A stretch of DNA of 64,000 nucleotides, from contig JAFEBL010000020.1 in the NCBI GenBank assembly GCA_018242665.1, positions 1-64,000 of the forward strand. The letters run 5' to 3'. Below the pieces are notes generated by a model, which saw only the letters and a program-made list of their open reading frames with translations, had not been told where the DNA came from and did no database searches. The position numbers were made by a program, and so were the translations under genes. This DNA comes from Nitrospira sp. (GTDB taxonomy: Bacteria; Nitrospirota; Nitrospiria; Nitrospirales; Nitrospiraceae). Below are positions 50,785 through 63,971 of this stretch, piece by piece. Position 1 is the first letter of the stretch; each line of letters starts with the position of its first letter.

Positions 50785-51261
50785 ATGAAAGCTAAACAGG
50801 GCGTAATCGACTTACTCAATAAAATACTGACAGCTGATCTCACCGCCATCAATCAATACTTCGTCCATGCGAAGATGTGCGCGAATTGGGGATATGATCG
50901 CCTCCACCATAAGGTGAGAGAGCGTAGTATCGATGAGATGAAGGATGCCGACGAGTTGATCAGCCACATTCTGTACTTGGAAGGTGTGCCTAACGTGCAG
51001 CGGATGAATACCGTGCACATTGGGGAGACGGTTCCCGAGCAGTTGAAGCTTGACCTCAAGGCCGAGCAGGAAATGTTGGCGCTGTTGAGCGAAGGCGTGA
51101 CCCATTGCGCGAAGGTCAGTGACTTTACGACCCGGCATATGCTTGAGGACATGGCCAAGGATGTGGATGGGCACATCGATTGGATCGAGACGCAAATGGA
51201 AACGATCAAGCAAATCGGTGTCGAGAATTATCTGGCTGAGCAGATCAAGAAGGACAGTTAA
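50785..51261 (+). CDS. bfr: bacterioferritin, haem-binding type with degraded ferroxidase site
   Basis: A 158-residue four-helix ferritin that aligns to E. coli bacterioferritin without gaps through residue 133, so numbering is shared. The haem ligand Met52 is present (DEMKDAD). Of the six ferroxidase ligands, Glu51, Glu94 and His130 remain. The others are changed: Glu18 is Asp, His54 is Asp and Glu127 is Val. It should bind haem but oxidise Fe(II) poorly alone. The next gene encodes a complementary paralogue 32 bases downstream; a mixed 24-mer is inferred. Confidence 0.93.
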   Translation: MKAKQGVIDLLNKILTADLTAINQYFVHAKMCANWGYDRLHHKVRERSIDEMKDADELISHILYLEGVPNVQRMNTVHIGETVPEQLKLDLKAEQEMLALLSEGVTHCAKVSDFTTRHMLEDMAKDVDGHIDWIETQMETIKQIGVENYLAEQIKKDS

Positions 51262-51293
51262 TATCGCGCCCTGGCGTGGTGATGGGGGTATGG

Positions 51294-51764
51294 ATGAAAG
51301 CGAAAGAGGGAGTCCTCGATATTTTGAACAAAGTGTTGGTCAGTGAGCTCACCGCGGTGCATCAATATCTGCTGCACGCGGCGCTCTGTAAGCACTGGGG
51401 GTATGGTCGGCTTCACGAGCATTTCAGCCACCTGGCCCAGGAAGAAGTCGGCCATTCCTCTGGCCTCATCGATCACATCCTCTACCTGGGCGGAGCGCCC
51501 GAGATGAATCGGCTCGATGCCGTCGCTGTCGGAAAGAAAGTGCCGGAGTTGTTGGAGGCCGATCTTGCGTTCGAGCGCGAGGATGCAGAGGCATTGCGTG
51601 GGGGAATCGCCCATTGTGTCAAGGTCGCAGACTACACGACCAGACATCGACTTGAGGAAATGATTGTTGACACGGAGGAGCACATTGAGTGGTTTGAAAC
51701 CCAGCTCCGCACAATTTCCCAAGTTGGATTGGAACGGTACCTGGCCGAGCAGATTGCTGGATAA
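51294..51764 (+). CDS. bfr: bacterioferritin, ferroxidase type lacking the haem methionine
   Basis: A 156-residue paralogue of the preceding protein in the same numbering. Ferroxidase ligands Glu18, Glu51, His54, Glu94 and His130 are present; Glu127 is Thr. The haem ligand Met52 is Val. It therefore looks like the iron-oxidising partner of a two-subunit bacterioferritin. The ATG at 51294 gives the family start KAKEGVLDILNKVL; an earlier in-frame start at 51276 would add six residues. Both genes form one transcript ahead of a hairpin. Confidence 0.93.
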   Translation: MKAKEGVLDILNKVLVSELTAVHQYLLHAALCKHWGYGRLHEHFSHLAQEEVGHSSGLIDHILYLGGAPEMNRLDAVAVGKKVPELLEADLAFEREDAEALRGGIAHCVKVADYTTRHRLEEMIVDTEEHIEWFETQLRTISQVGLERYLAEQIAG

Positions 51765-52014: not shown

Positions 52015-52545
52015 CTAGCGGGCCTGCTGCCGGATTGAGAGCATGCGCAATTGCAGCGGAGAATGTCCTGTCGCTCTCTTGAAGAAATGGCTGAAGGCGA
52101 ATTGATCGCTGAAGCCTAGGCTCGCCGCAATTTCAGCCAGCGTCTGACCGCTGGTGCGAAGCAGCGTACTTCCGAGCTCCACCCGGTACCGCCGTAGATA
52201 TGTCGAAAAGGGTTCGCCCATCATTTTGGCAAACAGATCGGAGCAATACTTTTCTGAATAGCCTAAGAATTGTGCCAACACCTTCAGGCTCATGCCGCGG
52301 TGCAGATTATCGCTAATAAATGCTGTGATACGGGCAGGGAGTGTCTGGGCGGTGGAAGGCGCCCTGTTGTGTGGGGCCAACACGTGTGACAGGTTGAAGA
52401 GATCGCAGACGAGGGTGCGAAGTTCGTGCTCTGTTCGGACTTGCTCCAATCGATCTGCCCATTCGGGTGAATGTGCTCGAAGCTCGGCAGCGAGTGTGTG
52501 TAGACGGTCAAAGAACAATGGCAAATTTGATGATGTATGTGGCAT
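52015..52545 (-). CDS. AraC-family transcriptional regulator
   Basis: A 176-residue regulator. The C-terminal half is a double helix-turn-helix AraC domain (MSLKVLAQFLGYSEKYCSDL and TLAEIAASLGFSDQFAFSHF with FKRATGHSPLQLR). The N-terminal 75 residues match no ligand domain I recognise. The ATG at 52545 follows GGAAGGAGACGCCGC; an upstream TTG overlaps the HD-GYP stop. As last gene of an apparent iron-regulated operon it may control the same or neighbouring genes, as AraC regulators do for siderophore genes. Confidence 0.92.
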   Translation of the reverse strand: MPHTSSNLPLFFDRLHTLAAELRAHSPEWADRLEQVRTEHELRTLVCDLFNLSHVLAPHNRAPSTAQTLPARITAFISDNLHRGMSLKVLAQFLGYSEKYCSDLFAKMMGEPFSTYLRRYRVELGSTLLRTSGQTLAEIAASLGFSDQFAFSHFFKRATGHSPLQLRMLSIRQQAR

Positions 52546-52568
52546 GCGGCGTCTCCTTCCCGATGGGC

Positions 52569-53318
52569 TCAAAACATTCGAAGATTGGCGTTGGTAGGCA
52601 GTGGTGCTACCGGGGCTGGTTCGCGGACTGACTGTAAGAGGACATCATCGTCCGATTGCGCTACTGTGGCCTGGGTGTGTAGGACTTCGCAAAATTTCGC
52701 GCAGAGATCAGGGTCAAATTGCGAGCCCGCGGAGGCCTGTAAGGCACGCAGGGCGGTCTGCCAGGAGGTCGAGCGGGAAACGATGGTATCGAACACGTCC
52801 GCGAGTGCCAACATTCTCGCCCCAACTGGGATGTAGGCTCCTCGAAGTCCATAGGGGTACCCGGCCCCGTCCCATCGTTCGTGATGGTGAGCGATAAGCC
52901 GTGCCGGGCCATGCAAAAAGGAAAAGGGGGCAAGAAGGGCTGCGCCTTCCCTCGGGTGACTTTGGAGGAGCGCATAGTCTTTCAATGAATGCGCGGTAGT
53001 CTCGTCGCGGAGGTGTCCCGGCAAGGTGAGCAGCCCGATGTCATGTAATAGTGCCGCATACTGCAAATTGAGTCGCTGCTCACGGTCCAAACCGACCTGT
53101 CGGGCGAGCAGGAGGGCATAGTGTGCTGTGCGTTCTCCATGACCGAAGTGATCCGGAATGACGGACTCAATCTGACGCGCCACCCGTTGGAGTTGAATGA
53201 GTCTGACCGATTCCAATGAGTCTTGGGTGAGGTTCAGGTCTTCCAAGCTACCGAGCTGTTGCCCGACATCCTGGATCAATTGCGCCACGGTGTTGATTGG
53301 TACTGCGAGTCGCTCCAT
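52569..53318 (-). CDS. HD-GYP domain protein (putative c-di-GMP phosphodiesterase)
   Basis: A 249-residue protein with a full HD-GYP domain. HGERTAHYALLLARQVGL, the HD pair in ALLHDIGLL, and HHERWDGAGYPYGLRG supply the metal ligands and the GYP motif. There is no receiver, PAS or membrane segment, so input must come through the N-terminal 50 residues or expression level. The C-terminus is proline-rich. It precedes the AraC regulator on the minus strand. GGAGGGTTTC precedes the ATG, behind a long hairpin. Confidence 0.92.
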   Translation of the reverse strand: MERLAVPINTVAQLIQDVGQQLGSLEDLNLTQDSLESVRLIQLQRVARQIESVIPDHFGHGERTAHYALLLARQVGLDREQRLNLQYAALLHDIGLLTLPGHLRDETTAHSLKDYALLQSHPREGAALLAPFSFLHGPARLIAHHHERWDGAGYPYGLRGAYIPVGARMLALADVFDTIVSRSTSWQTALRALQASAGSQFDPDLCAKFCEVLHTQATVAQSDDDVLLQSVREPAPVAPLPTNANLRMF

Positions 53319-53422: not shown

Positions 53423-53941
53423 TTATCCGTGCTCTCCCCGCTTTCCTGACAGCAGTGGCTGCTGCAGCACCCACATTTCGTGAAGAGGGATGACCATCAT
53501 AATCAGGAATCCAACCGTCATGCAGGTATCGCCCGTGAGCATCGTTAGCACAAAAATGGGGGACACATAACTGATCAGCCAGGGAGACAGCAGGTCGAGC
53601 AGCACTCCTCCGAACGAGAGCCACGTGGTAATTGTCTTGAGTCGATGGCTCGCGCTGGTGAGATAGAGGACATGCACCAAGATCATGAACACCACCGGCA
53701 TGGTGAACAAATGAAAGTGGGTGACTTCAGCAAGTTCACGAAACGACATCGGCTCGCCGAAGGTTGCATCGGATCCACGGTAGTGATCAGCGATCCCTTG
53801 GGGCGATAGCCCGGTCATGCTGTGGGCCCAAAAAAATGAAAACGTGAAGCCGGCCAGCATCAGCAAGAGAAAAAACGTATAGACGAGCCTGATGTGGCGA
53901 TCCGAGTCACGGAGCCGAAATCGAGTGTTGAAATTGCGCAT
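53423..53941 (-). CDS. four-helix membrane protein, candidate haem-b electron carrier
   Basis: A 172-residue inner-membrane protein with four hydrophobic helices (about 21-40, 76-96, 106-126, 130-150). It has many histidines at helix ends: RHIRL (16), WAHSM (40), THFHLF (75, 77), LVHVLY (88) and LHEMW (154). The periplasmic loop is GLSPQGIADHYRGSD and the following helix THFHLFTMPVVFMILVH. I know no named family for it. The layout resembles small cytochrome b proteins, so haem binding is inferred. It follows the FMN-binding protein gene by 12 bases, which suggests electron transfer from quinol to the flavin. Confidence 0.8.
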   Translation of the reverse strand: MRNFNTRFRLRDSDRHIRLVYTFFLLLMLAGFTFSFFWAHSMTGLSPQGIADHYRGSDATFGEPMSFRELAEVTHFHLFTMPVVFMILVHVLYLTSASHRLKTITTWLSFGGVLLDLLSPWLISYVSPIFVLTMLTGDTCMTVGFLIMMVIPLHEMWVLQQPLLSGKRGEHG

Positions 53942-53953
53942 GACCGCGGAGAA

Positions 53954-54631
53954 TCAGTTCCCAAAAATCGACTTGAAGAAACCCTTATCCGTTTTTTGAG
54001 CGGTCACGGTGTCGCTGCCCAGTCCTTGGGGCTTCAAATAGAATTCATCGACTAAGACCAGCACCCGTTTAATGCCTGCGGTCATGGACCGGACGGACAT
54101 CGTTGCTCCGCTGATGTTGATGATGTCTTTGTTGATCCGAACCGGATCAAGGACGGACTTCCCTTCGTACTGGACGTTAAACCGCTTCGTGCGCACTTCA
54201 CTGCCTCGCGCTTCGCGAAAGACGAGCAGTTCGACGTTGGAGACAACGCCGTGGGCATCGACTCCGACCATATAGGTCATAGGCTTGTGTTTGCCGATGG
54301 TGTTTTGCACGAGCGCATACCCGTCGATGTGCGTGCCGGTTTCGCCAAGATAGACTTCGAAGGATTCCTCGGGGAATTTCCAGCCGATGCGGTTCTCGAC
54401 GATCGCCTTTTTGTCCGCGGGGATAGTCAACAGTTCCTTCCTGATGCGTTCGGATTTTGGAAACATCAATTTGATCGCGTCCTCTTCGGTGAGAAACACT
54501 TCAGCCATCGTCATTTCTTGTTCTGTCAAGTAACGTTTGAGTTCATTATCCCAGACCCGTTCCGCCCGAAGAAGAGAAGGGGATAGCAAGTACAACAGCA
54601 TCATTGAGCAGGCAAGCCGATGAGCGTTCAT
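53954..54631 (-). CDS. exported FMN-binding domain protein (flavinylated)
   Basis: A 225-residue exported protein. The signal peptide (MNAHRLACSMMLLYLLSPS) ends near LLRA-E. The C-terminal FMN-binding domain has SGATMS at residues 174-179, the motif whose Thr is covalently loaded with FMN by ApbE in NqrC and RnfG; the Asp often found three residues before the Ser is not there. The ATG at 54631 overlaps the lipoprotein stop (ATGA). With the divergent apbE gene it forms a flavin-based extracytoplasmic redox pair; an Fe(III) reductase role is inferred. Confidence 0.9.
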   Translation of the reverse strand: MNAHRLACSMMLLYLLSPSLLRAERVWDNELKRYLTEQEMTMAEVFLTEEDAIKLMFPKSERIRKELLTIPADKKAIVENRIGWKFPEESFEVYLGETGTHIDGYALVQNTIGKHKPMTYMVGVDAHGVVSNVELLVFREARGSEVRTKRFNVQYEGKSVLDPVRINKDIINISGATMSVRSMTAGIKRVLVLVDEFYLKPQGLGSDTVTAQKTDKGFFKSIFGN

Positions 54632-55092
54632 GTGGGCAGACATCCTTGTTCTTTCAGTTTGGCGTTGATTCGGTCAACGATTTCATTTGTCGCCACTTCA
54701 GACGGCTCGGCAGGCCACCACTTAGTAGCTTGTGACGTGGCTCCTCCTCGCGAATGCCACCGCTGTCTGGTTTCTAAGACGCTTACAGAGGTCACATCGG
54801 TCGTTCGATTAATGGAAAGGCTCAAGCGTGCGCGCTCTTTGTTCCCAAATCCTTCTCGTGAAAAAATGCCGAAAGAGCGTTCCGTAAGCGGGGCGACATC
54901 CATCCATCCAGTTTCAATCGACCCCTTCTCCTTGCTTGATGACGCGATGGATTCTCCCTTCATCACTTCCAGGGATGCATCCCAAACCATATCGTAGGAG
55001 CAGGCATAGAATTGTTTTCGGTCTCCACTCAATGTGGCGCAACCTGCGCAGATTGAGAGGAGTATCAGTGCAGCTATCCGTGAGGTCAACAC
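54628..55092 (-). CDS. predicted outer-membrane lipoprotein
   Basis: A 154-residue protein from the GTG at 55092, giving a short signal peptide with lipobox Cys (ICAGC) at residue 18. A longer start at 55194 overlaps the porin gene by 35 bases and puts the signal too far in, so it is less likely. The mature part (YDMVWDASLEVMKGE, LSINRTTDVTSVSVLETRQRW) recalls BamC-like or DUF3576-like folds without firm identity. It lies between porin and FMN-binding genes, overlapping the latter by ATGA. Confidence 0.75.
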   Translation of the reverse strand: MLTSRIAALILLSICAGCATLSGDRKQFYACSYDMVWDASLEVMKGESIASSSKEKGSIETGWMDVAPLTERSFGIFSREGFGNKERARLSLSINRTTDVTSVSVLETRQRWHSRGGATSQATKWWPAEPSEVATNEIVDRINAKLKEQGCLPT

Positions 55093-55159
55093 AGCGATCA
55101 GGGCTCCATCGTCTGCAGGCGATCCCTCTTTGCGAGAGAGCGCCTGCACTAAAGTAAGG

Positions 55160-56635
55160 TTAGAAGTACGTTGCAGCTGAGATGACAAACGCACTGTCGT
55201 GAATTCTCTCTCCGGTGTTCGGGTTAAATGCTTTCGGCATATATTGATAGCTGACCTTAAAGACAGTATCTTCCACAGGACGATAGTTCAGACCAAAAGA
55301 GATCTGCTCCAACTCACCCTGATTCTCACCACGATTGTCGCGGTTTAAGTTCACGCGGTCATATCGAACAACGGCCGTGAAGGTGGACCCTTCGCCGAAC
55401 CGCTTGGGTGAGAGCTTGGTCAGGAATGCAGGCATGAAGTGGTAGTTGCCTTGCAGGTAGAATCCTTGCATCCGTTGCGGTGGCCCGGCAAAGGAATTCA
55501 AGGTATTGATGCCGGTCAGGAAGGTTCCAGGTGTCGCGAATGTGGCGCCTGGAATGGCACGGGAGTTTCCTCTGGAATAGGCCCATGCGGCCTCACCGAG
55601 GATTTCAAATGGTCCCTTTTGAAGCGTCCAATCAATCGCTGTAATGCTCAGCGGGTTATAGCTGGTGGCGGATTGATTCCCATAATAACTCGATCCTGCG
55701 ACTTCAACCCCTAGCATGGGGCTGAAGGCCACGCGACCTGAAACCGCTTTCCCGTTGTTAATATCCAAGCCGTCATTGGAAGCACATTTCCGTTGACGGG
55801 AGTTTCGAGTCCCGTTTTCCTCGCTGATTCGTGGAGATCCATCCTGGTTGTATCCGCAAGGGCCGGTGGTCACGTAAAACTCATAGTCCAGTTTACTGGT
55901 GCGGCCTGGATAGAGAGTGCCATAGAACCCCATTCCGGTTTCGGCCATGGTCGACGGAATGATGAGTTGGCTGACGAGTGGTCGATCGGTCAGGTCGTTC
56001 AGCGGCGAATCGTGTAGCAAGTTGAACTTGCCGATAGGAATGAGCAAGATTCCCGCCCTGAGGTTGAATGGTTCATGTACCAAGTAGTCGATATGGGCAA
56101 ATTCCAGACTGATTTCATTGTCACTGGTTTCTCGAATGCCGTGTTCGATCTCAATTTCTGATGCGAACTTTACATGTTCGGTAATGTCGGCATAGATGAA
56201 GGGAACAAATCGTTGCTGGTCGAATCCATTCGTCGTTCCGCTTCCAAATCCGCCCGTTTCTATGACGCCTTTACTATGGGCTCGATATTGAATGTCCATG
56301 TACCCGCCCACAATAGCCTTCGGGGCTGAAACGAATGGCTTGGCATACACCAATCGACCTGATCCGGTCGAGCCGAACGACAGCGCAGGTTGCGTGTCCG
56401 CGCGGCGTTCCTTTCCAACCTCCGGAAGCGTGCCGATCCCAGGTTCACTACCCGGAGCCACCATGCCTTCTCTTCGTTCGGACACTCCTTCCCGCCGCTC
56501 ATGCTCCTGCAATCGTTTTTCAACCGCTTCGTCAACCAGCTTCTTGATCTCCTCCGGGGTCATGTTTTCTGCCAACGCCGGCATCGCCGACAGACTGGCC
56601 AGCACGAGAGCCCCGAGGAATGCCCGCATCTTCAT
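55160..56635 (-). CDS. outer-membrane porin (OprP/OprO-like) with N-terminal coiled coil
   Basis: A 491-residue outer-membrane protein. A signal peptide (ending PALAE near residue 23) is followed by a charged coiled coil (EEIKKLVDEAVEKRLQEHERR) and a linker, then about 370 residues of alternating beta strands. The chain ends in Phe, typical of beta barrels. FAHIDYLVHEPFNLRAGILL and VRYDRVNLNRDNRG fit the phosphate-selective porin class. It probably lets small iron complexes or anions across the outer membrane. GGAGGATACCC precedes the ATG. No TonB-dependent receptor is seen. Confidence 0.88.
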   Translation of the reverse strand: MKMRAFLGALVLASLSAMPALAENMTPEEIKKLVDEAVEKRLQEHERREGVSERREGMVAPGSEPGIGTLPEVGKERRADTQPALSFGSTGSGRLVYAKPFVSAPKAIVGGYMDIQYRAHSKGVIETGGFGSGTTNGFDQQRFVPFIYADITEHVKFASEIEIEHGIRETSDNEISLEFAHIDYLVHEPFNLRAGILLIPIGKFNLLHDSPLNDLTDRPLVSQLIIPSTMAETGMGFYGTLYPGRTSKLDYEFYVTTGPCGYNQDGSPRISEENGTRNSRQRKCASNDGLDINNGKAVSGRVAFSPMLGVEVAGSSYYGNQSATSYNPLSITAIDWTLQKGPFEILGEAAWAYSRGNSRAIPGATFATPGTFLTGINTLNSFAGPPQRMQGFYLQGNYHFMPAFLTKLSPKRFGEGSTFTAVVRYDRVNLNRDNRGENQGELEQISFGLNYRPVEDTVFKVSYQYMPKAFNPNTGERIHDSAFVISAATYF

Positions 56636-56771: not shown

Positions 56772-56951
56772 TCATGCCGGTACCGTGCTCCATCCTTCGA
56801 TTGCGGTGAAAGGGATCACAACGATACGCTTACAGCGTTTGCACTTCAGCTCAAGGCCTTGCCCCCCAACCTTGGCGATGAGTTGGCCACATTCACATCT
56901 GGTTTCGCTGTCTTGGCAGGAGTGAGTTACTAGATCGTTGCGAACAGCCAT
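56772..56951 (-). CDS. 59-aa Com-like zinc-ribbon protein
   Basis: A small gene in a stretch that looks intergenic. The 59-residue product has RCECGQLIAKVG (Cys 19, 21) and ELKCKRCKRI (Cys 37, 40), a four-cysteine ribbon like the Com translational regulators of Mu-like phages. It ends before the porin gene with a 136-base gap. It is the first gene behind the predicted Fur-controlled promoter. The plus-strand frame overlapping it has no ribosome site. It could be a regulatory nucleic-acid-binding protein; the ribosome site (AAGG) is weak. Confidence 0.75.
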   Translation of the reverse strand: MAVRNDLVTHSCQDSETRCECGQLIAKVGGQGLELKCKRCKRIVVIPFTAIEGWSTVPA

Positions 56952-56980: not shown

Positions 56981-56999
56981 GAGAACGATTATTAATATC
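56981..56999. promoter_or_regulatory. Fur-box-like operator
   Basis: The 19-mer GAGAACGATTATTAATATC matches the classical Fur consensus at 14 of 19 positions. It covers the -10 of the minus-strand promoter that would express the porin/FMN genes and lies about 120 bases from the apbE start. Binding by Fe-Fur would block that promoter. Confidence 0.65.
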
Positions 57000-57117: not shown

Positions 57118-58224
57118 ATGGAATGCGACAAATTCATAAGATTCTCTGAAAGTTTGTGTGCCACAGATCGAAAACGGGTGCATACCAAACCAGTGCGGTT
57201 GTTCTCGGCCATGATCGCACTGGCGGGTTCTCTTTGGGCGTTCGGCGGTTGTGCAGGGCCGACGCCCAGTCCTGCGCCGGTGATTGTGAAGAGGACGCAG
57301 ATGCAGATGGGAACCCTGGTGACAATCACAGCGGTGGCATCGGACCGCCAGGCGGCGCAGGAGGCAACATCGGCGGGATTTCAGGAGATCCATCGACTAG
57401 AGGGGTTGCTGAGCACCTGGATTAAAGACAGTGAACTATCACGCCTCAATGCGGCGGCAGGAACAGGTGCCGTGCCAATCAGCCCCGAGACCATGCAGGT
57501 GTTGGAAGATTCGGTGAAGATCTCCATGCTGACAGGGGGAGGCTTCAATATTCTGATAGGCCCTGCTGTGGATGTGTGGAGTGTGCTTGATCGACAACAG
57601 ATTCCGTCCGAGGCTGAGTTGGCCGCAATTCGCTCCCTGACCGACCTCGGCTCGCTGTATCTTGATAAGAAACATGGGGCAGTCAAGCTCAACAAAACTG
57701 GTATGCGTGTAGATGTCGGTGGAATCGGTAAAGGATATGCTGCCGACATGGCCGTGGCGGCAATGAGGAACGCGGGCGCGACTGCGGGAGTGGTTGCCCT
57801 ATCTGGAGATATCAAGACCTTCGGGTTGCTTCCCGACGGGCAAACGTTTCCGTTCGGTATACGGCACCCTCGACGGGAGGGGGCTATTCTGGCATTCATT
57901 GACCTTCAGGACGAAGCGATTTCAACGGCGGGGGACTACGAGCGGTTTTTTGAGCGAGACGGGGTGCGATATCATCACATCCTGGATCCAGCCACTCTCC
58001 AGCCCGCCCGGGATTGCCAAAGCGTGACGGTTGTGGCTCCTGATGGTGTGACCGCGGATGGATTGGATACGGGTATTTTTGTCATGGGCCGAGAGCGAGG
58101 CATGGCGTTGATCGAACAGTTGCCTGGCGTCGGGGCGGTCATCGTGGACCGGGACGGAAAAGTATGGGTGTCGTCCTATCTGCGTGGGCGAGTGAGGATG
58201 AACGAGGAGGGTGCCGGTCAGTGA
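57118..58224 (+). CDS. apbE: FAD:protein FMN transferase (lipoprotein)
   Basis: A 368-residue ApbE protein that transfers FMN from FAD to a Thr of FMN-binding domain proteins in the periplasm. An N-terminal lipoprotein signal (ALAGSLWAFGGC) precedes MGTLVTITAVA. Catalytic motifs include RVDVGGIGKGYAADMAV, AISTAGDYERFF and the C-terminal TADGLDTGIFVMG. A start at 57211 is possible and shortens the N-terminus by 31 residues. It diverges from the operon carrying its likely substrate (the SGAT protein), sharing the Fur-box region. Confidence 0.95.
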   Translation: MECDKFIRFSESLCATDRKRVHTKPVRLFSAMIALAGSLWAFGGCAGPTPSPAPVIVKRTQMQMGTLVTITAVASDRQAAQEATSAGFQEIHRLEGLLSTWIKDSELSRLNAAAGTGAVPISPETMQVLEDSVKISMLTGGGFNILIGPAVDVWSVLDRQQIPSEAELAAIRSLTDLGSLYLDKKHGAVKLNKTGMRVDVGGIGKGYAADMAVAAMRNAGATAGVVALSGDIKTFGLLPDGQTFPFGIRHPRREGAILAFIDLQDEAISTAGDYERFFERDGVRYHHILDPATLQPARDCQSVTVVAPDGVTADGLDTGIFVMGRERGMALIEQLPGVGAVIVDRDGKVWVSSYLRGRVRMNEEGAGQ

Positions 58225-58324: not shown

Positions 58325-59281
58325 TTAGTGTGCCAGCTGATAGTTGATAGGAATCTGAAGCGTGACCGAAGACTTTTCGAGCGGCTGAGTCAGCGTGATG
58401 GGTGACGATTTCTGAAGTGTCTCGATCGCCGCCAAATCGAGAATGTCGTGCCCAGAACTTTTTGTGATGGTGGCAGACACGATCCGACCGTCCTCTTGAA
58501 TGACAATACGGACGAGCACCCGCCCTTCCAAATGCTTGACCCGCGCTTCCGCCGGATATTGTTTGAGCGACTCGATCCGGGGTAGAAGACTTGCTGCCAG
58601 CCATCCATAGTCAGGCTTTTTGGCCACCGAGGCAGGGGGTGTCGACGGCGTCAGCCTTGCGGTTTGCGTCGGACCCGAAGTGCTCTCAGGAGCTTGCTCC
58701 ATGCGGGCAGGGGAGAGGGAAGGCTCAGGAACGGAAGGTAGTTCTTGGCGTTGACTGGGAGACGCCGCCTGTTCTGGTTCCTGGCCGAGCTCGCTTGTGG
58801 CTTGTGGAGCCGGTATTGGAGAAGGCATTTCATGTATCGCCCTCTCGGGCATGGATGGAGAAGCTGACGTAGAAGCTTCCAATCCGGATTGGAGGCCTTG
58901 AATTGGCGGAGGAGCCATGGGCTGGGACATCTGCGGTTCAACCGGTAGGGGGGCGGCCGTGACTGCGGTTGCACGCGAACGAGAAGGCTGTGATGCGGTA
59001 GGTCGTGGTGTTGTAGTGGGAACGGTCTGCTCATTCACGTTAGTTGCTGCCGGCGTCGTAGAGGGGACGCTTGGGGTCGCTGAGGGCAGGTTTGTCGAAC
59101 TGGCTGATTTCACAACGGCGACATCCCAATGGAACGAAGGCGATGGTGGGGCAAGGCCCATCTTTGCGATCAGCAGGCCAGCCAGAATGATGGCGGTACC
59201 ATGCAGCCCCAGCGAGATGATCCAACAGCTCGCTCGCTGGCGGACGAACGTATCTTGCCCGACAGGGTGGTGGGCGGTCAC
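58325..59281 (-). CDS. tonB: energy transducer TonB
   Basis: A 318-residue protein with one N-terminal helix (IISLGLHGTAIILAGLLIAK). A long Pro/Ser/Thr/Gln-rich periplasmic spacer (about 60-225) follows, and then a TonB C-terminal domain (YPAEARVKHLEGRVLVRIVI). It carries proton-motive energy to outer-membrane receptors. It overlaps exbD by 4 bases and converges on apbE. No receptor gene is in the window, so its partner is elsewhere. Confidence 0.93.
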   Translation of the reverse strand: MTAHHPVGQDTFVRQRASCWIISLGLHGTAIILAGLLIAKMGLAPPSPSFHWDVAVVKSASSTNLPSATPSVPSTTPAATNVNEQTVPTTTPRPTASQPSRSRATAVTAAPLPVEPQMSQPMAPPPIQGLQSGLEASTSASPSMPERAIHEMPSPIPAPQATSELGQEPEQAASPSQRQELPSVPEPSLSPARMEQAPESTSGPTQTARLTPSTPPASVAKKPDYGWLAASLLPRIESLKQYPAEARVKHLEGRVLVRIVIQEDGRIVSATITKSSGHDILDLAAIETLQKSSPITLTQPLEKSSVTLQIPINYQLAH

Positions 59282-59652
59282 AGGCGGACGACCTCCAGGC
59301 TGACCGACTGAAACCCAAGGCCGCGTATCTCATCCACCACCGTGACAAAGCGTTCGAGTAGGGTCACTTTGTCCGCTCGCACCACGACGAGAGACTCTCG
59401 GGGATGTGCAAGCAACATCGTTTTCAACCCATCGGCCGGCACGGGCCGATCATTCACAAACAATTCGCCGGTCGCGGTCAAGGTCACGACGACGGGCACA
59501 TCCTTATGGTCTCCGGCCTCTTTGGCCTTGGCGAGATTCACGGGAATTTGGCCCGTGCTGATGAATGTCGCCGTCGTTAAGACGATGACGAGCAACACCA
59601 GCATCACGTCCACCAGGGGGATGACATTGATTTGATTAACTTCGCGTTCCAT
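59278..59652 (-). CDS. exbD: biopolymer transport protein ExbD
   Basis: A 124-residue motor subunit. VIPLVDVMLVLLVIVLTTA holds the membrane helix with the conserved proton-coupling Asp, and the periplasmic domain follows (GELFVNDRPVPADGLKTMLL). It forms the stator with ExbB and drives TonB. It overlaps exbB by 17 bases and tonB by 4, a fully coupled unit. Confidence 0.95.
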   Translation of the reverse strand: MEREVNQINVIPLVDVMLVLLVIVLTTATFISTGQIPVNLAKAKEAGDHKDVPVVVTLTATGELFVNDRPVPADGLKTMLLAHPRESLVVVRADKVTLLERFVTVVDEIRGLGFQSVSLEVVRL

Positions 59653-60067
59653 GCTGCACCTTATAGGTCGTCAGAAGTTCCGCGACGCGCCGGCGAAGAA
59701 TGTTGTTCATGACGACACAGGGAATGGCCACCAGCAGGCCGACGGCCGTGGCCTTCAGGGCGAGGCTCAAGCCGATCATGATGGTATTCACCGCCATGGT
59801 ACCCGATGTTCCCATGGTGTGAAATGTCATCATGATACCCAGCACGGTGCCTAACAATCCGATGTACGGAGCATTGGCGGCGACAGTGCCGATGATAACC
59901 AAACGTTTGGTCAGGGCGATTTCAAATGTTTGAACATCGGTAAATTGAGACACGTCCACGCGCCGGTAGTATAGCCATCGCTCAATTGCCACGGCCACCG
60001 ACCACACACTCAAGGCCACCAACAGGCCGATGATGCCGTATTCTACCGCATTCTTAAGCACATCCAT
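59636..60067 (-). CDS. exbB: biopolymer transport protein ExbB
   Basis: A 143-residue three-helix MotA/TolQ/ExbB protein, shorter than the 230-residue proteobacterial form. AANAPYIGLLGTVLGIMMTF and MIGLSLALKATAVGLLVAIP are the channel helices. GGTGGAGG precedes the ATG. It begins the exbB-exbD-tonB block about 100 bases after the ABC ATPase gene, on the same strand. Confidence 0.94.
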   Translation of the reverse strand: MDVLKNAVEYGIIGLLVALSVWSVAVAIERWLYYRRVDVSQFTDVQTFEIALTKRLVIIGTVAANAPYIGLLGTVLGIMMTFHTMGTSGTMAVNTIMIGLSLALKATAVGLLVAIPCVVMNNILRRRVAELLTTYKVQHGTRS

Positions 60068-60164: not shown

Positions 60165-61325
60165 TCAGGGATGTTCGTCGAGTGATGCGGGCCCAGCCGG
60201 CGATGTGCCGCGTTGCGGGAACAGGACCGTATGAGTGGCCACGACGCGTAGCGCAATGGCTGTTCCCACTTGGTAAATGCTCAACGACGATTCGCTGCTG
60301 TGCACGATTTGCCCAGACGCAAGCTGGATAGTATAGACGTTCTCGGACCCCTTGAATTGTCGCGCCACGATGCGCGCATCGGCCCCCTTTGTCGGCACGA
60401 TATGCACATCATCTGGGCGTATCATGACCACGACATTCGTGCCCATGGCGAGATGTTGCGTGTTAGGGAAATCCCCGAGTTCGGTCGTGATCACTTGATT
60501 GGTCGCCACCCCCGAGATGAAATCCGCCTGCCCGACGAAATCGGCTACGAAGGGGGTTGTGGGGAGATGGTAAATGTTCTCGGGGGTATCAAACTGTTCG
60601 AGACGCCCGTGGTTCAGGACCGCCACATGATCGGCCATGGAAAAGGCCTCGTCGTGGTCGTGGGTGACGAGGATGGCTGTGGTTTTCGTTTGTCTCAGCA
60701 AGGCATGCAGGTCTTGCCGCATGCGGCTGGCCATATCGGGATCCAAATTGCTGAACGGTTCATCCAGCAGCAACAGCACCGGTCGCAGGGCGAGGGCGCG
60801 AGCCAGCGCCACGCGCTGCTGCTGGCCGCCGGAAAGTTCATGCGGGTAGCGATGCTCCAAACCGCGCAATCCGGTCAGTGCCAGGAGATCGTCGACGATC
60901 GCTCGTTGCTGAAGGCGGGGGAGGCGGCTCAACCCGAAGGCGATATTCTTGTCCACGCGAAGATGCGGGAATAGGGCATACTCTTGAAATACCATGCCGA
61001 TGTGCCGTTGTTCCGTCGGCACCATCGTGTCCGACGAGGAGACGAGTCGCCCAGACAGTGTGATGGAGCCTCGGGTGAGACGTTCAAACCCTGCAATGGC
61101 ACGAAGGATCGTCGTTTTTCCGCAACCGGATGGGCCGAGGAGGCAGAGGATTTCTCCCTGATGCACGTTAAACGTGATGGCTTCGACCGCAGGCTGCGTT
61201 GGTTCGTAGGCGCAGGAAACTTCTCGAAGTTCGAGCACCGCTGAATCGTCCGGCGTCGGCTCAAGCGCGGCTCCTACACCCGTGACCTCAGTTCCATCGG
61301 TGCTCGATCCGTTCATGGACGTCAC
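60165..61325 (-). CDS. Fe(III) ABC transporter ATP-binding protein
   Basis: A 386-residue ATPase. GPSGCGKTTIL (Walker A), LSGGQQQRVALARAL (signature) and LLLLDEPFSNLD (Walker B) are intact, and the C-terminal TOBE-like domain (about 260-370) is of the FbpC/PotA type. It powers the permease encoded just upstream, whose stop it overlaps by 4 bases. Iron specificity is inferred from the binding protein gene and the ExbB/TonB neighbourhood. Confidence 0.92.
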   Translation of the reverse strand: MTSMNGSSTDGTEVTGVGAALEPTPDDSAVLELREVSCAYEPTQPAVEAITFNVHQGEILCLLGPSGCGKTTILRAIAGFERLTRGSITLSGRLVSSSDTMVPTEQRHIGMVFQEYALFPHLRVDKNIAFGLSRLPRLQQRAIVDDLLALTGLRGLEHRYPHELSGGQQQRVALARALALRPVLLLLDEPFSNLDPDMASRMRQDLHALLRQTKTTAILVTHDHDEAFSMADHVAVLNHGRLEQFDTPENIYHLPTTPFVADFVGQADFISGVATNQVITTELGDFPNTQHLAMGTNVVVMIRPDDVHIVPTKGADARIVARQFKGSENVYTIQLASGQIVHSSESSLSIYQVGTAIALRVVATHTVLFPQRGTSPAGPASLDEHP

Positions 61326-62926
61326 GAGGCAATCTCCTGTTCACGCCCGCGCCAGTCTTTGGAGACCAGCATCATCAGCGCCGGGAGACTCAACAAGACG
61401 ATCAGCAGCGCCGCAGGCGCCGCCAATTGATAATATTCTTCGCTGGCCTCCAGCCACACTCGAATAGCCAGTGTATCAAATCCTACGGGTCTCAACAGCA
61501 AGGTCGCCGGCAATTCCTTCATGGTTTGAAGAAACATGAGTACCCATGCCGCGGTAAAGCCATTGCGAACAAGTGGCAAGGTGATGCGCCGCAGGCTTTG
61601 TTGGACGGTGCAACCGAGAGTGCGAGCGACCTCTTCCACGTTGGGGGTGATTTGTTGCAGGGCCGGCTCCATCGACTGCAGTCCGACCGGGAGGAAATGC
61701 AGAATGTAGGCGGTCAAGAGCACGATGACCGTCCCGTAGACGGCCGGGACAAAGTGCGTGAACAATACCAGCACCGCCAGGGCCGCAACGGGACCCGGCA
61801 ATGCGTAGCCGGCATAGGCGGCGTGGAGACAGGCCAGGTTCAGTCGGGACGGGCGACGGCTGGCGAGGTAGGCTAACGGAAGCCCGATGATCACCCCGCC
61901 GCTGGCCGCCAGGGCTGCAAGAACGCTACTGTTCCATACGAAGCCTACAAAGCGTGTATCCAGTGCGCCTTGGCCGATAGCTTCTCCGCTCCACTGCACC
62001 AACATGCCTGCGGGAATGCCGAATGACACGCCGAAGACCAGAGCCACGTAGCCGGTGATCGCCGCCGTTCCGAGGGGCCCAGCCTGCCGGCGCGTCGGCC
62101 TCCTGTACCGCCCCGTCGTTTGATAAAAGCGGCTGCGTTGCCGAAACCACCGTTCAGTCACCAGAAAAAGACCGGCCATCAGCACGAGGAGCAAACTGAG
62201 GATGCTGGCAGCCGTATGGTCGTAACGGCTGGTCATTTGCTGGTAGACCGCATAGGTCAGTGTTTGATAGCGGAGGAGCGAGACGGCCCCGAAATCCGAA
62301 ATCACATACAGCACCACAAGTGCGAGACCTGCTGCGATGGCGGGGCGAATGAGCGGTAGCGTGACTCGCCACATCGTGGCCCAGGGAGAGATGCTGCAGA
62401 CCCGTGCCACTTCCTCAAACGACAGATTGAGGTTGAGGAAGGCACCACGAGCCAGCAAATAGACAAATGGAAAGGTGTCGAGGGCCATGATGAGCGTCAC
62501 CCCGGGAAAGCCTTGAGGGGAAAGCAGTCGCGCGTCCGACCCAAGCATCCCCTGCCACCACTGTTCCACCGGCCCTCCCATTCCGAGGAGGTGTGCGTAG
62601 ACATAGGCCAGGACGTAGGTCGGCATGGCCAATGGCAGGGCGAGTGCCCATTCCCACACCCGACGGCCAGGGAATTCGTAGCGCACAACGAGCCATGCCA
62701 GAGAAAGACCAAGCCCCAAAGTCGTGAGGGCCACGCTGGCGGCCAACGAAAGGGTGTTTCCCAGCAATTCCGGAATGCGGGTGGACCACAGGCGAGCCCA
62801 CACGGATGGCGCAGCTGTCACTGCCACGTAGATGATGTAGCCGGTAGGGAGGACCAGAATCGCTGCAGTGATAAGGCTCACCCATTGCAGCATCGATGGG
62901 GTGTGGACTCGTGCGGCAGTGAACAT
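61322..62926 (-). CDS. Fe(III) ABC transporter permease (fused two-module type)
   Basis: A 534-residue permease with about twelve membrane helices in two similar halves. Each half carries an EAA-type loop (EEVARVCSISPWATMWRVTL and EEVARTLGCTVQQSLRRITL) that contacts the ATPase. This two-module form is typical of FbpB/AfuB/SfuB iron permeases. It lies between the binding-protein gene (14 bases upstream) and the ATPase gene (4-base overlap). Confidence 0.93.
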   Translation of the reverse strand: MFTAARVHTPSMLQWVSLITAAILVLPTGYIIYVAVTAAPSVWARLWSTRIPELLGNTLSLAASVALTTLGLGLSLAWLVVRYEFPGRRVWEWALALPLAMPTYVLAYVYAHLLGMGGPVEQWWQGMLGSDARLLSPQGFPGVTLIMALDTFPFVYLLARGAFLNLNLSFEEVARVCSISPWATMWRVTLPLIRPAIAAGLALVVLYVISDFGAVSLLRYQTLTYAVYQQMTSRYDHTAASILSLLLVLMAGLFLVTERWFRQRSRFYQTTGRYRRPTRRQAGPLGTAAITGYVALVFGVSFGIPAGMLVQWSGEAIGQGALDTRFVGFVWNSSVLAALAASGGVIIGLPLAYLASRRPSRLNLACLHAAYAGYALPGPVAALAVLVLFTHFVPAVYGTVIVLLTAYILHFLPVGLQSMEPALQQITPNVEEVARTLGCTVQQSLRRITLPLVRNGFTAAWVLMFLQTMKELPATLLLRPVGFDTLAIRVWLEASEEYYQLAAPAALLIVLLSLPALMMLVSKDWRGREQEIAS

Positions 62927-62939
62927 GTGCGGCCAATGT

Positions 62940-63971
62940 TCAGCGAAGGCCGACTTGTTCGATGAGTGTGAGTGTACTCTCTCGCAATTCCGCGAGCCGG
63001 GCTAACGGCACAAGGGCCGCGCGAAAGCTGTGCCGGTCGACGAGTACCGGATCGGCTTTGACATCCGGATGCAAGGGGTATTCTTTATCAAGATCGGCAA
63101 ACAATTTTTGTCCAGCCTGGGCAACCAGGAATTCCACCAGGAGTTTGGCGCTGTCCACATGCTTTGAGGTCCGTGTGATCCCGATTCCGGTCACATTCAT
63201 GATGGCGCCCATGCCACCTTCCTGTTGGTCGGGCATAATCGCCGCGATGGGGGCGGCCGGCTGGGCCGCCAGGTGCCGGTAAATGTAGTAATGGTTCACG
63301 ATGCCGAGTGCGACTTGGCCTTTGGCGACGGCTTCCACAATTTGTGAGCTTTTCTGATAGACCTGCGTCCCGGCGTTGGCCTTGAGACCTTGGAGAAACT
63401 GTTTCGTACGGTCCTCACCGAAGGTGGCCTTGATGACTGAGACGCCGGCTTGGAGATACTCGCTGCCGGAGTTCGGAATAGCGATTTTGTCTTTCCATTG
63501 CGGGTGAGCCAGGTCGAGTAAGGACGTGACTTGGTTGGGTTTAACGAGATTGGTGTTGTAGACGACGATCCAGAATCGACCGGAAAGGCCGATCCAGCTG
63601 TTGTCGCTTGCGCGGAACTGTGAAGGAATGGCTCGTTCGACTTCGCGCATGTTCATGGGCCGAAGGAGTTTGAGTTCCCGGGCATGCTCCAGGCTCCCGG
63701 CATCGTTGGTCAGGAACACGTCGGCCGGGCTGTGGTCACCCTCAGCCTGCAAACGATTGACCAATTCAGTTGTCCCGGACGAGAGGAGTTCAATCTGGAT
63801 ACCGCTTTTGGATTGAAATTCGTCGAGGACCGGCTTGATGAGACGTTCCGCCCGCCCGGAATAGACGACAAGTTTATCCGCCGCATCGGCAGGGGCTGTG
63901 ACGAATGTCGAGGCCAACAGACCACCCAGGATCAGGGCGAAGGAAAAGACGGTGCGATGGAATGAAGCCAT
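62940..63971 (-). CDS. periplasmic Fe(III)-binding protein (FbpA/FutA-like)
   Basis: A 343-residue exported binding protein. The signal peptide ends near APADAAD (about residue 31), followed by KLVVYSGRAERLIKPVLDEF, the class start. GIVNHYYIYRHL near residue 223 contains the adjacent tyrosines that bind Fe(III) in FbpA, and QKSSQIVEAVAKGQ precedes it. It delivers ferric iron to the permease. GGAGGCATTGCCGC precedes the ATG. Its promoter lies beyond the window edge; only 29 bases upstream are visible. Confidence 0.95.
   Translation of the reverse strand: MASFHRTVFSFALILGGLLASTFVTAPADAADKLVVYSGRAERLIKPVLDEFQSKSGIQIELLSSGTTELVNRLQAEGDHSPADVFLTNDAGSLEHARELKLLRPMNMREVERAIPSQFRASDNSWIGLSGRFWIVVYNTNLVKPNQVTSLLDLAHPQWKDKIAIPNSGSEYLQAGVSVIKATFGEDRTKQFLQGLKANAGTQVYQKSSQIVEAVAKGQVALGIVNHYYIYRHLAAQPAAPIAAIMPDQQEGGMGAIMNVTGIGITRTSKHVDSAKLLVEFLVAQAGQKLFADLDKEYPLHPDVKADPVLVDRHSFRAALVPLARLAELRESTLTLIEQVGLR

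Follow-up and report, generated by a model that had tools for sequence, protein, structure and literature searches.

Gene clusters for flavinylation have been linked to iron, and several of these systems have been tied to iron assimilation (PMC8238504). Some half of all genomes encoding ApbE machineries have been reported to be without a previously characterised flavinylation system, and two kinds of protein are described in the same report (PMC10979944): FezC, a cytochrome that according to modelling forms its haem sites by pairing into a homodimer, and the DUF4405 proteins, which have six transmembrane helices and four central His residues.

The cassette described here gives one such ApbE group a membrane partner, a dedicated FMN protein and a porin, and occurs in many phyla, including Nitrospirota and relatives of Manganitrophus. 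It lies in a window of Nitrospira DNA (the whole stretch analysed, 64,000 nucleotides) and contains a gene for a small membrane protein, which we call H4. Our literature searches found no description of the cassette; words that begin with "nitrospir" or "porin" are absent from the main texts of PMC8238504 and PMC10979944, whose supplementary tables may list the cassette unnamed.

Gene order, partners and distribution of the cassette

Features of the window are listed in Table 1. The first-pass annotation, made from the sequence of the window, had proposed an uncharacterised four-helix protein paired with a flavinylated protein encoded 12 bases away. The pair of ORFs was borne out, with both genes on the minus strand, the FMN_bind gene preceding that of H4 and 12 bp between them. 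The end coordinate given at that time, 54631, is the likelier start of the FMN_bind gene, because this second ATG overlaps the stop of the upstream lipoprotein-like gene. H4 is indeed uncharacterised, being assigned to no family in Pfam or NCBIfam, and the 67 members of the H4 alignment have no Pfam family except DUF4212 and TB2_DP1_HVA22, with one match in one member each. The porin, ApbE and the iron-uptake surroundings were omitted from that annotation.

Table 1. Features around H4 in the window, with coordinates, strand and remarks
Feature	Coordinates	Strand	Remarks
Bacterioferritin	50785..51261	+	TIGR00754 over cut-off
Second bacterioferritin-like ORF	51276..51764	+	Judged by sequence only
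H4	53423..53941	-	ORF, 172 aa; predicted four-helix membrane protein; conserved E72, H75, H77, H90, W121
FMN_bind periplasmic flavoprotein (predicted)	53954..54643	-	Pfam; SGATMS flavinylation motif; likely start 54631
Lipoprotein-like ORF	54628..55194	-	Found in Nitrospirales cassettes; start codon uncertain
Outer-membrane porin	55160..56635	-	Porin_O_P 23.6 bits (cut-off 20.9); weakly Porin_O_P-like
59-aa Cys-rich small protein	56772..56951	-	Conserved upstream of porin, between ApbE and porin, in Nitrospirales; zinc-ribbon-looking
Promoter-region element, 19 bp	56981..56999	-	Upstream of small Cys-rich ORF; near-identical in many Nitrospirales genomes
ApbE FAD:protein FMN transferase	57118..58224	+	Pfam; divergent from porin-FMN_bind-H4 genes
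TonB	58325..59281	-	TonB_C domain match
ExbD-like	59278..59652	-	Below ExbD_2 cut-off
ExbB	59636..60067	-	exbB2 over cut-off
ABC transporter ATPase, FbpC-like	60165..61325	-	By position
ABC transporter permease, FbpB-like	61322..62926	-	By position
Ferric-iron-type periplasmic binding protein, FbpA-like	62940..63971	-	Best matches Fe(3+) binding proteins, E 8.6e-50

The partner protein has an FMN_bind domain above the Pfam cut-off (31.9 bits against 22) and is RnfG-like among PDB sequences. Its flavinylation motif is intact, which agrees at the level of sequence with the earlier claim that it is flavinylated, and GATMS is invariant in an alignment of 46 rows. With this motif and with ApbE encoded alongside, the protein is predicted to be a covalent FMN carrier. 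Among the 68 FMN proteins adjacent to H4 in the wider collection described below, 55 fit the strict (S/T)GA(S/T) pattern, and the remaining 13 have variants such as VGATLS or MGSTLT in which the Thr is kept.

The lipoprotein-like ORF has a weak DUF3576 likeness below the cut-off. The Cys-rich small protein resembles phage Com-type regulators but has no Pfam match. The promoter-region element agrees with a Fur-box consensus at 15 of 19 positions and was considered a candidate Fur box. This reading was weakened, as the element recurs only once genome-wide at three or fewer mismatches, by position apparently inside a gene, and is not repeated at the other iron genes of the genome within the same limit. 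Directly downstream of H4, an HD-domain protein and an AraC-type regulator are encoded on the minus strand (52015-53318), and both are present in most of the same-genus loci fetched.

H4 is present in 125 of 148 genomes (its own and relatives). When 295 genomes from the phylum were searched with a profile, 109 had matches, among them a longer form as well as short forms from other families, and a scan of a species-level genome collection gave 69 H4 loci, a lower bound since an exact peptide pattern was required. By depositor names, the 69 loci come from Nitrospirota/Nitrospirae, Manganitrophaceae, Dadabacteria, Rokuibacteriota, Deltaproteobacteria/Desulfobacterota, Methylococcales, other Gammaproteobacteria, Planctomycetota (and Brocadia), Acidobacteria, Binatota, Riflebacteria, Wallbacteria and others. 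Plasmid searches found nothing.

The first-pass annotation had suggested a functional pair and had proposed linkage to FMN_bind genes as a check, and the suggestion is strongly supported. An FMN_bind gene lies directly upstream of H4 on the same strand in 68 of the 69 loci, from many phyla, and the single exception (L113) starts at a contig end, within an ApbE gene. In the wider-phylum search FMN_bind adjoins H4 in all 12 short-form loci fetched. The order porin, FMN_bind, H4 is kept across many phyla, with the porin upstream in 59 of the 69 loci; eight of the ten loci without it were judged to be cut by contig ends, and two (L081 and L082) appear genuinely to lack it. ApbE is found in 37 of the 69 loci and is fused to FMN_bind in 12. 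The genome of the window has one FMN_bind match and one ApbE match, both in this cassette, and has no match to DUF2271 or DUF3570. Co-loss in relatives points the same way: among 40 Nitrospirales genomes, FMN_bind was found in 20/20 with H4 and 1/20 without it, and ApbE in 20/20 and 8/20, respectively, where some genomes without H4 are incomplete and part of the co-absence may be missing sequence.

Conserved residues, predicted structure and longer relatives of H4

The AlphaFold2 model of H4, built with 67 sequences, is confident (pLDDT 92.2, pTM 0.83) and has helices at 15-43, 47-55, 67-93, 99-125 and 128-157, all transmembrane except 47-55, which supports the four-helix membrane protein proposed before. 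A model of a second member (L104) has a pLDDT of 90.0. On a positive-inside reading both termini would be cytoplasmic, and helix 2 would have H75 and H77 towards its periplasmic end and H90 towards its cytoplasmic one.

H4 has His residues at 16, 40, 53, 75, 77, 90, 99, 154 and 171. The first-pass annotation had named helix-edge His at 16, 40, 75, 77, 88 and 154 as possible haem ligands and had asked for their conservation in homologues. There is no His at 88, which presumably meant H90. In the Nitrospirales homologues (46 aligned), H53, H75, H77 and H90 are each kept in 46/46, H40 in 43/46, H16 in 35/46, H99 in 12/46 and H154 in 10/46. In an alignment across several phyla (75 rows, after removal of three rows truncated by contig ends, L080, L127 and L139, and of eight loci taken as duplicate places), H75 and H77 are found in 75/75 and H90 in 73/75, with E72 in 75, G56 in 75 and W121 in 74; position 53 is Y or H, and H16, H40, H99 and H154 are lost. 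Thus H75, H77 and presumably the intended H90 stood, but most of the proposed ligands are not conserved, and the conserved His all sit on helix 2. Since the pattern that fetched 66 of the 75 rows covered E72, H75 and H77, the conservation of these three in those rows is partly selected, whereas H90 was outside the pattern; for the three, the Nitrospirales and phylum searches, made without this pattern, are less biased evidence.

Because a single helix carries all the conserved His, binding a haem between two His would call for an oligomer, or else one ligand would have to be a residue other than His. By helix geometry, E72, H75 and H90 lie on one face of helix 2 and H77 on the other, with H75 and H77 pointing about 200 degrees apart, so that both faces are conserved; this suits a helix buried between protomers.

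No solved cytochrome matches H4 by sequence, or confidently by fold. A PDB sequence search gave one weak match only (E 0.74), and the best Foldseek E values were no lower than 0.66 for the H4 model (model 1) and 1.6 for that of the second member (model 2); structural neighbours of the second member are generic helical bundles. Weak fold overlap with subunit I of haem-copper oxidases was found for model 1, as its best alignment (Z 8.3, rmsd 4.3, 134 aligned), a Z common among helical bundles, and for model 2 (Z 5.4, rmsd 4.5, 141 aligned), where it was not top-ranked. Kinship with these oxidases was rejected, as the profile comparison is not significant (no COX1 Pfam match among the 67 members; hhalign P-values 0.09 and 0.08 against three COX1 sequences) and the ranking was not reproduced by the second member; we kept a resemblance at the level of a motif only.

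Longer relatives of about 235-270 aa share the H4 core and have a c-haem motif, CxxCH, inserted between helices 1 and 2. A short-form profile built from Nitrospirales only gave E values of 6e-18 to 5e-13 for 11 of the 12 long or divergent forms and of 0.0012 for the other (L068), with shuffled and reversed controls no better than 0.85, and reciprocally the long-form profile matches all 75 short forms. Two of those 12 (L069 and L070) have no CxxCH on reading of the sequence. The four long forms that were aligned keep H75 and H77 without H90, so the three His need not act together.

The c-haem long forms (L047-L050, L063-L068), for which we know of no described family, adjoin redox-type genes in several cases. 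By eye these are Rieske and cytochrome b (L064), hydrogenase subunits (L063) and multihaem cytochromes (L047, L066), of which only the L047 neighbour was confirmed by Pfam; others, such as L048, L049, L067 and L068, have no clear redox neighbour in the same listing. Among the divergent forms, an H4-like protein in the region L069:4974-6205 has as its neighbour an FMN_bind-like protein in which no flavinylation motif is visible, and the cluster also encodes CbiM and DUF4198; in the region L070:1521-5576, an H4-like protein with a His-rich loop directly follows an RND-family efflux pump gene.

Iron-related genes around the cassette

Next to ApbE in the window come TonB, ExbD, ExbB and then the ABC transporter, and bacterioferritin lies on the other side of the cassette; two Bfr matches are found at the corresponding place in many relatives. 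In NCBIfam, the nearest models to the periplasmic binding protein are those of 2-aminoethylphosphonate binding proteins, below cut-off.

Nitrospirota windows of about 20 kb contain at least one of the searched iron-type genes in 36 of 39 cases. The sets of iron partners differ by family within the phylum: Fbp-like, ExbBD, TonB and Bfr; Fur and FTR1; Fur and FbpBC; or FeoB, DtxR and FTR1. In the same 20 genomes, iron genes were found in 19/20 cassette windows and 1/20 random windows, with the provisos that the relatedness of these genomes makes their windows non-independent and that some of the iron reference set was drawn from these loci. Beyond Nitrospirota, an iron gene was detected within about 6 kb in 3 of 53 loci (L082, L095, L134); the survey that gave this count and the 36 of 39 above left out L160 (100 bases). 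A Pfam scan of 100 of the 208 listed neighbour proteins in these loci revealed no common theme.

Proposed electron transfer and comparison with known systems

We favour, with a probability of roughly 0.6, the reading that the cassette is a flavin-based periplasmic reductase with H4 as its inner-membrane electron-entry subunit, iron being a likely substrate in Nitrospirota. As the best explanation, H4 would represent a new class of flavinylation-associated inner-membrane electron-transfer protein, for which we infer the haem, the quinol, the direction of electrons, the oligomer, the topology and the iron substrate. In the proposed layout, the porin would lie in the outer membrane, the ApbE-flavinylated FMN_bind protein in the periplasm and H4 in the inner membrane. 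Electrons from the membrane, probably from quinol, would enter H4, where a cofactor may be held by E72, H75 and H77 of helix 2 near the periplasmic face and by H90 near the cytoplasmic face; this would most likely be a haem b shared between protomers. H4 would pass the electrons to the covalent FMN of the periplasmic protein, which in its reduced state would reduce a substrate admitted through the porin. In Nitrospirota this substrate would most likely be ferric iron, which would then serve the iron-uptake genes nearby. H4 as electron donor is the simplest reading because the FMN protein needs a donor, no inner-membrane protein other than H4 is encoded in the cassette, homologues of H4 carry c-haem motifs and its conserved His lie in the membrane. 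The electron conduit suggested in the first-pass annotation is plausible, since homologous long forms have a c-haem motif and adjoin redox-type genes. Iron reduction is probably the role of the cassette in Nitrospirota, and periplasmic iron reduction by these bacteria becomes a directly testable question. A bolder extension, which we regard as doubtful, is that H4 founds an unrecognised cytochrome family over several phyla, with oligomeric four-helix protomers in which the HxH and H90 ligate interface haems and with one scaffold that feeds either a separate flavoprotein (short form) or its own inserted c-haem (long form), forming the membrane half of a porin-flavoprotein ferric reductase.

The ligands E72, H75, H77 and H90 might instead bind metal, with H4 acting as a ferrous-iron permease or chaperone that takes Fe(II) after the FMN protein has reduced Fe(III) with electrons from elsewhere. 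HxH is a common metal motif, the cassette has iron neighbours, and distant relatives adjoin CbiM and DUF4198 (L069) or an RND-family efflux gene (L070), all of which fit such a role. However, it would leave the FMN protein without an encoded donor, though this protein and ApbE are the sole FMN_bind and ApbE matches of the genome, and several iron loci already have a FeoB, FTR1 or Fbp-type transporter; moreover, the long homologues have a c-haem motif and redox-type neighbours, and the two His of the HxH are too divergent in direction on the helix, at the angle given above, to favour it. We consider a metal-binding H4 improbable. Still less probable, in our judgement, is a cofactor-free H4 that would serve only to anchor, or to help assemble, the FMN protein or ApbE: the strict gene linkage would fit this too, but not the conserved His and Glu inside a membrane helix, the homologues with a c-haem motif, or a cassette having no other electron donor.

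The substrate is a separate question. The system may be a real flavin-based electron-transfer system whose substrate is not iron (another anion, a metal or an organic acceptor entering by the porin), the iron genes being merely co-located in Nitrospirota; this overlaps our best explanation and differs in substrate only. Diverse neighbours outside Nitrospirota, which are seldom iron genes, and a porin that is weakly Porin_O_P-like are consistent with it. Against it, the iron partners, though they vary from one Nitrospirota family to another, do recur (Fur, FTR1, FeoB with DtxR, Fbp-like, ExbBD, Bfr), and they separate cassette windows from random ones in the counts above. We regard a non-iron substrate as less likely than not.

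On the favoured electron-entry reading, one and the same membrane scaffold would serve two alternative acceptors, flavin and c-haem. Subunit I of haem-copper oxidases shares with H4 an HxH near a periplasmic helix end, that of H4 helix 2 resembling the one of helix X, and H4 differs in having no significant profile match. The flavinylation- and ferrosome-associated cytochromes DUF4405 and FezC, as described in PMC10979944, are likewise small membrane proteins with conserved His that are tied to ApbE/FMN or iron; H4, in contrast, has four helices with its conserved His on one of them, and DUF4405 (PF14358) gave no match among the 67 members at E 0.01 and an hhalign probability of 0.4%. PepSY-, MsrQ- and NapH-like, DsbD and Nqr/Rnf-like systems (PMC8238504) also have a transmembrane donor to an ApbE-flavinylated periplasmic protein, but H4 is unrelated to them by Pfam (no PepSY-like, MsrQ-like, NapH-like or DsbD domain among the 67 members) and its cassette has a recurrent porin. 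RnfG and NqrC share the FMN_bind domain and motif with the FMN partner of the cassette, whereas this partner scores far below the cut-off of RnfG models and is a separate periplasmic protein encoded with H4 and the porin.
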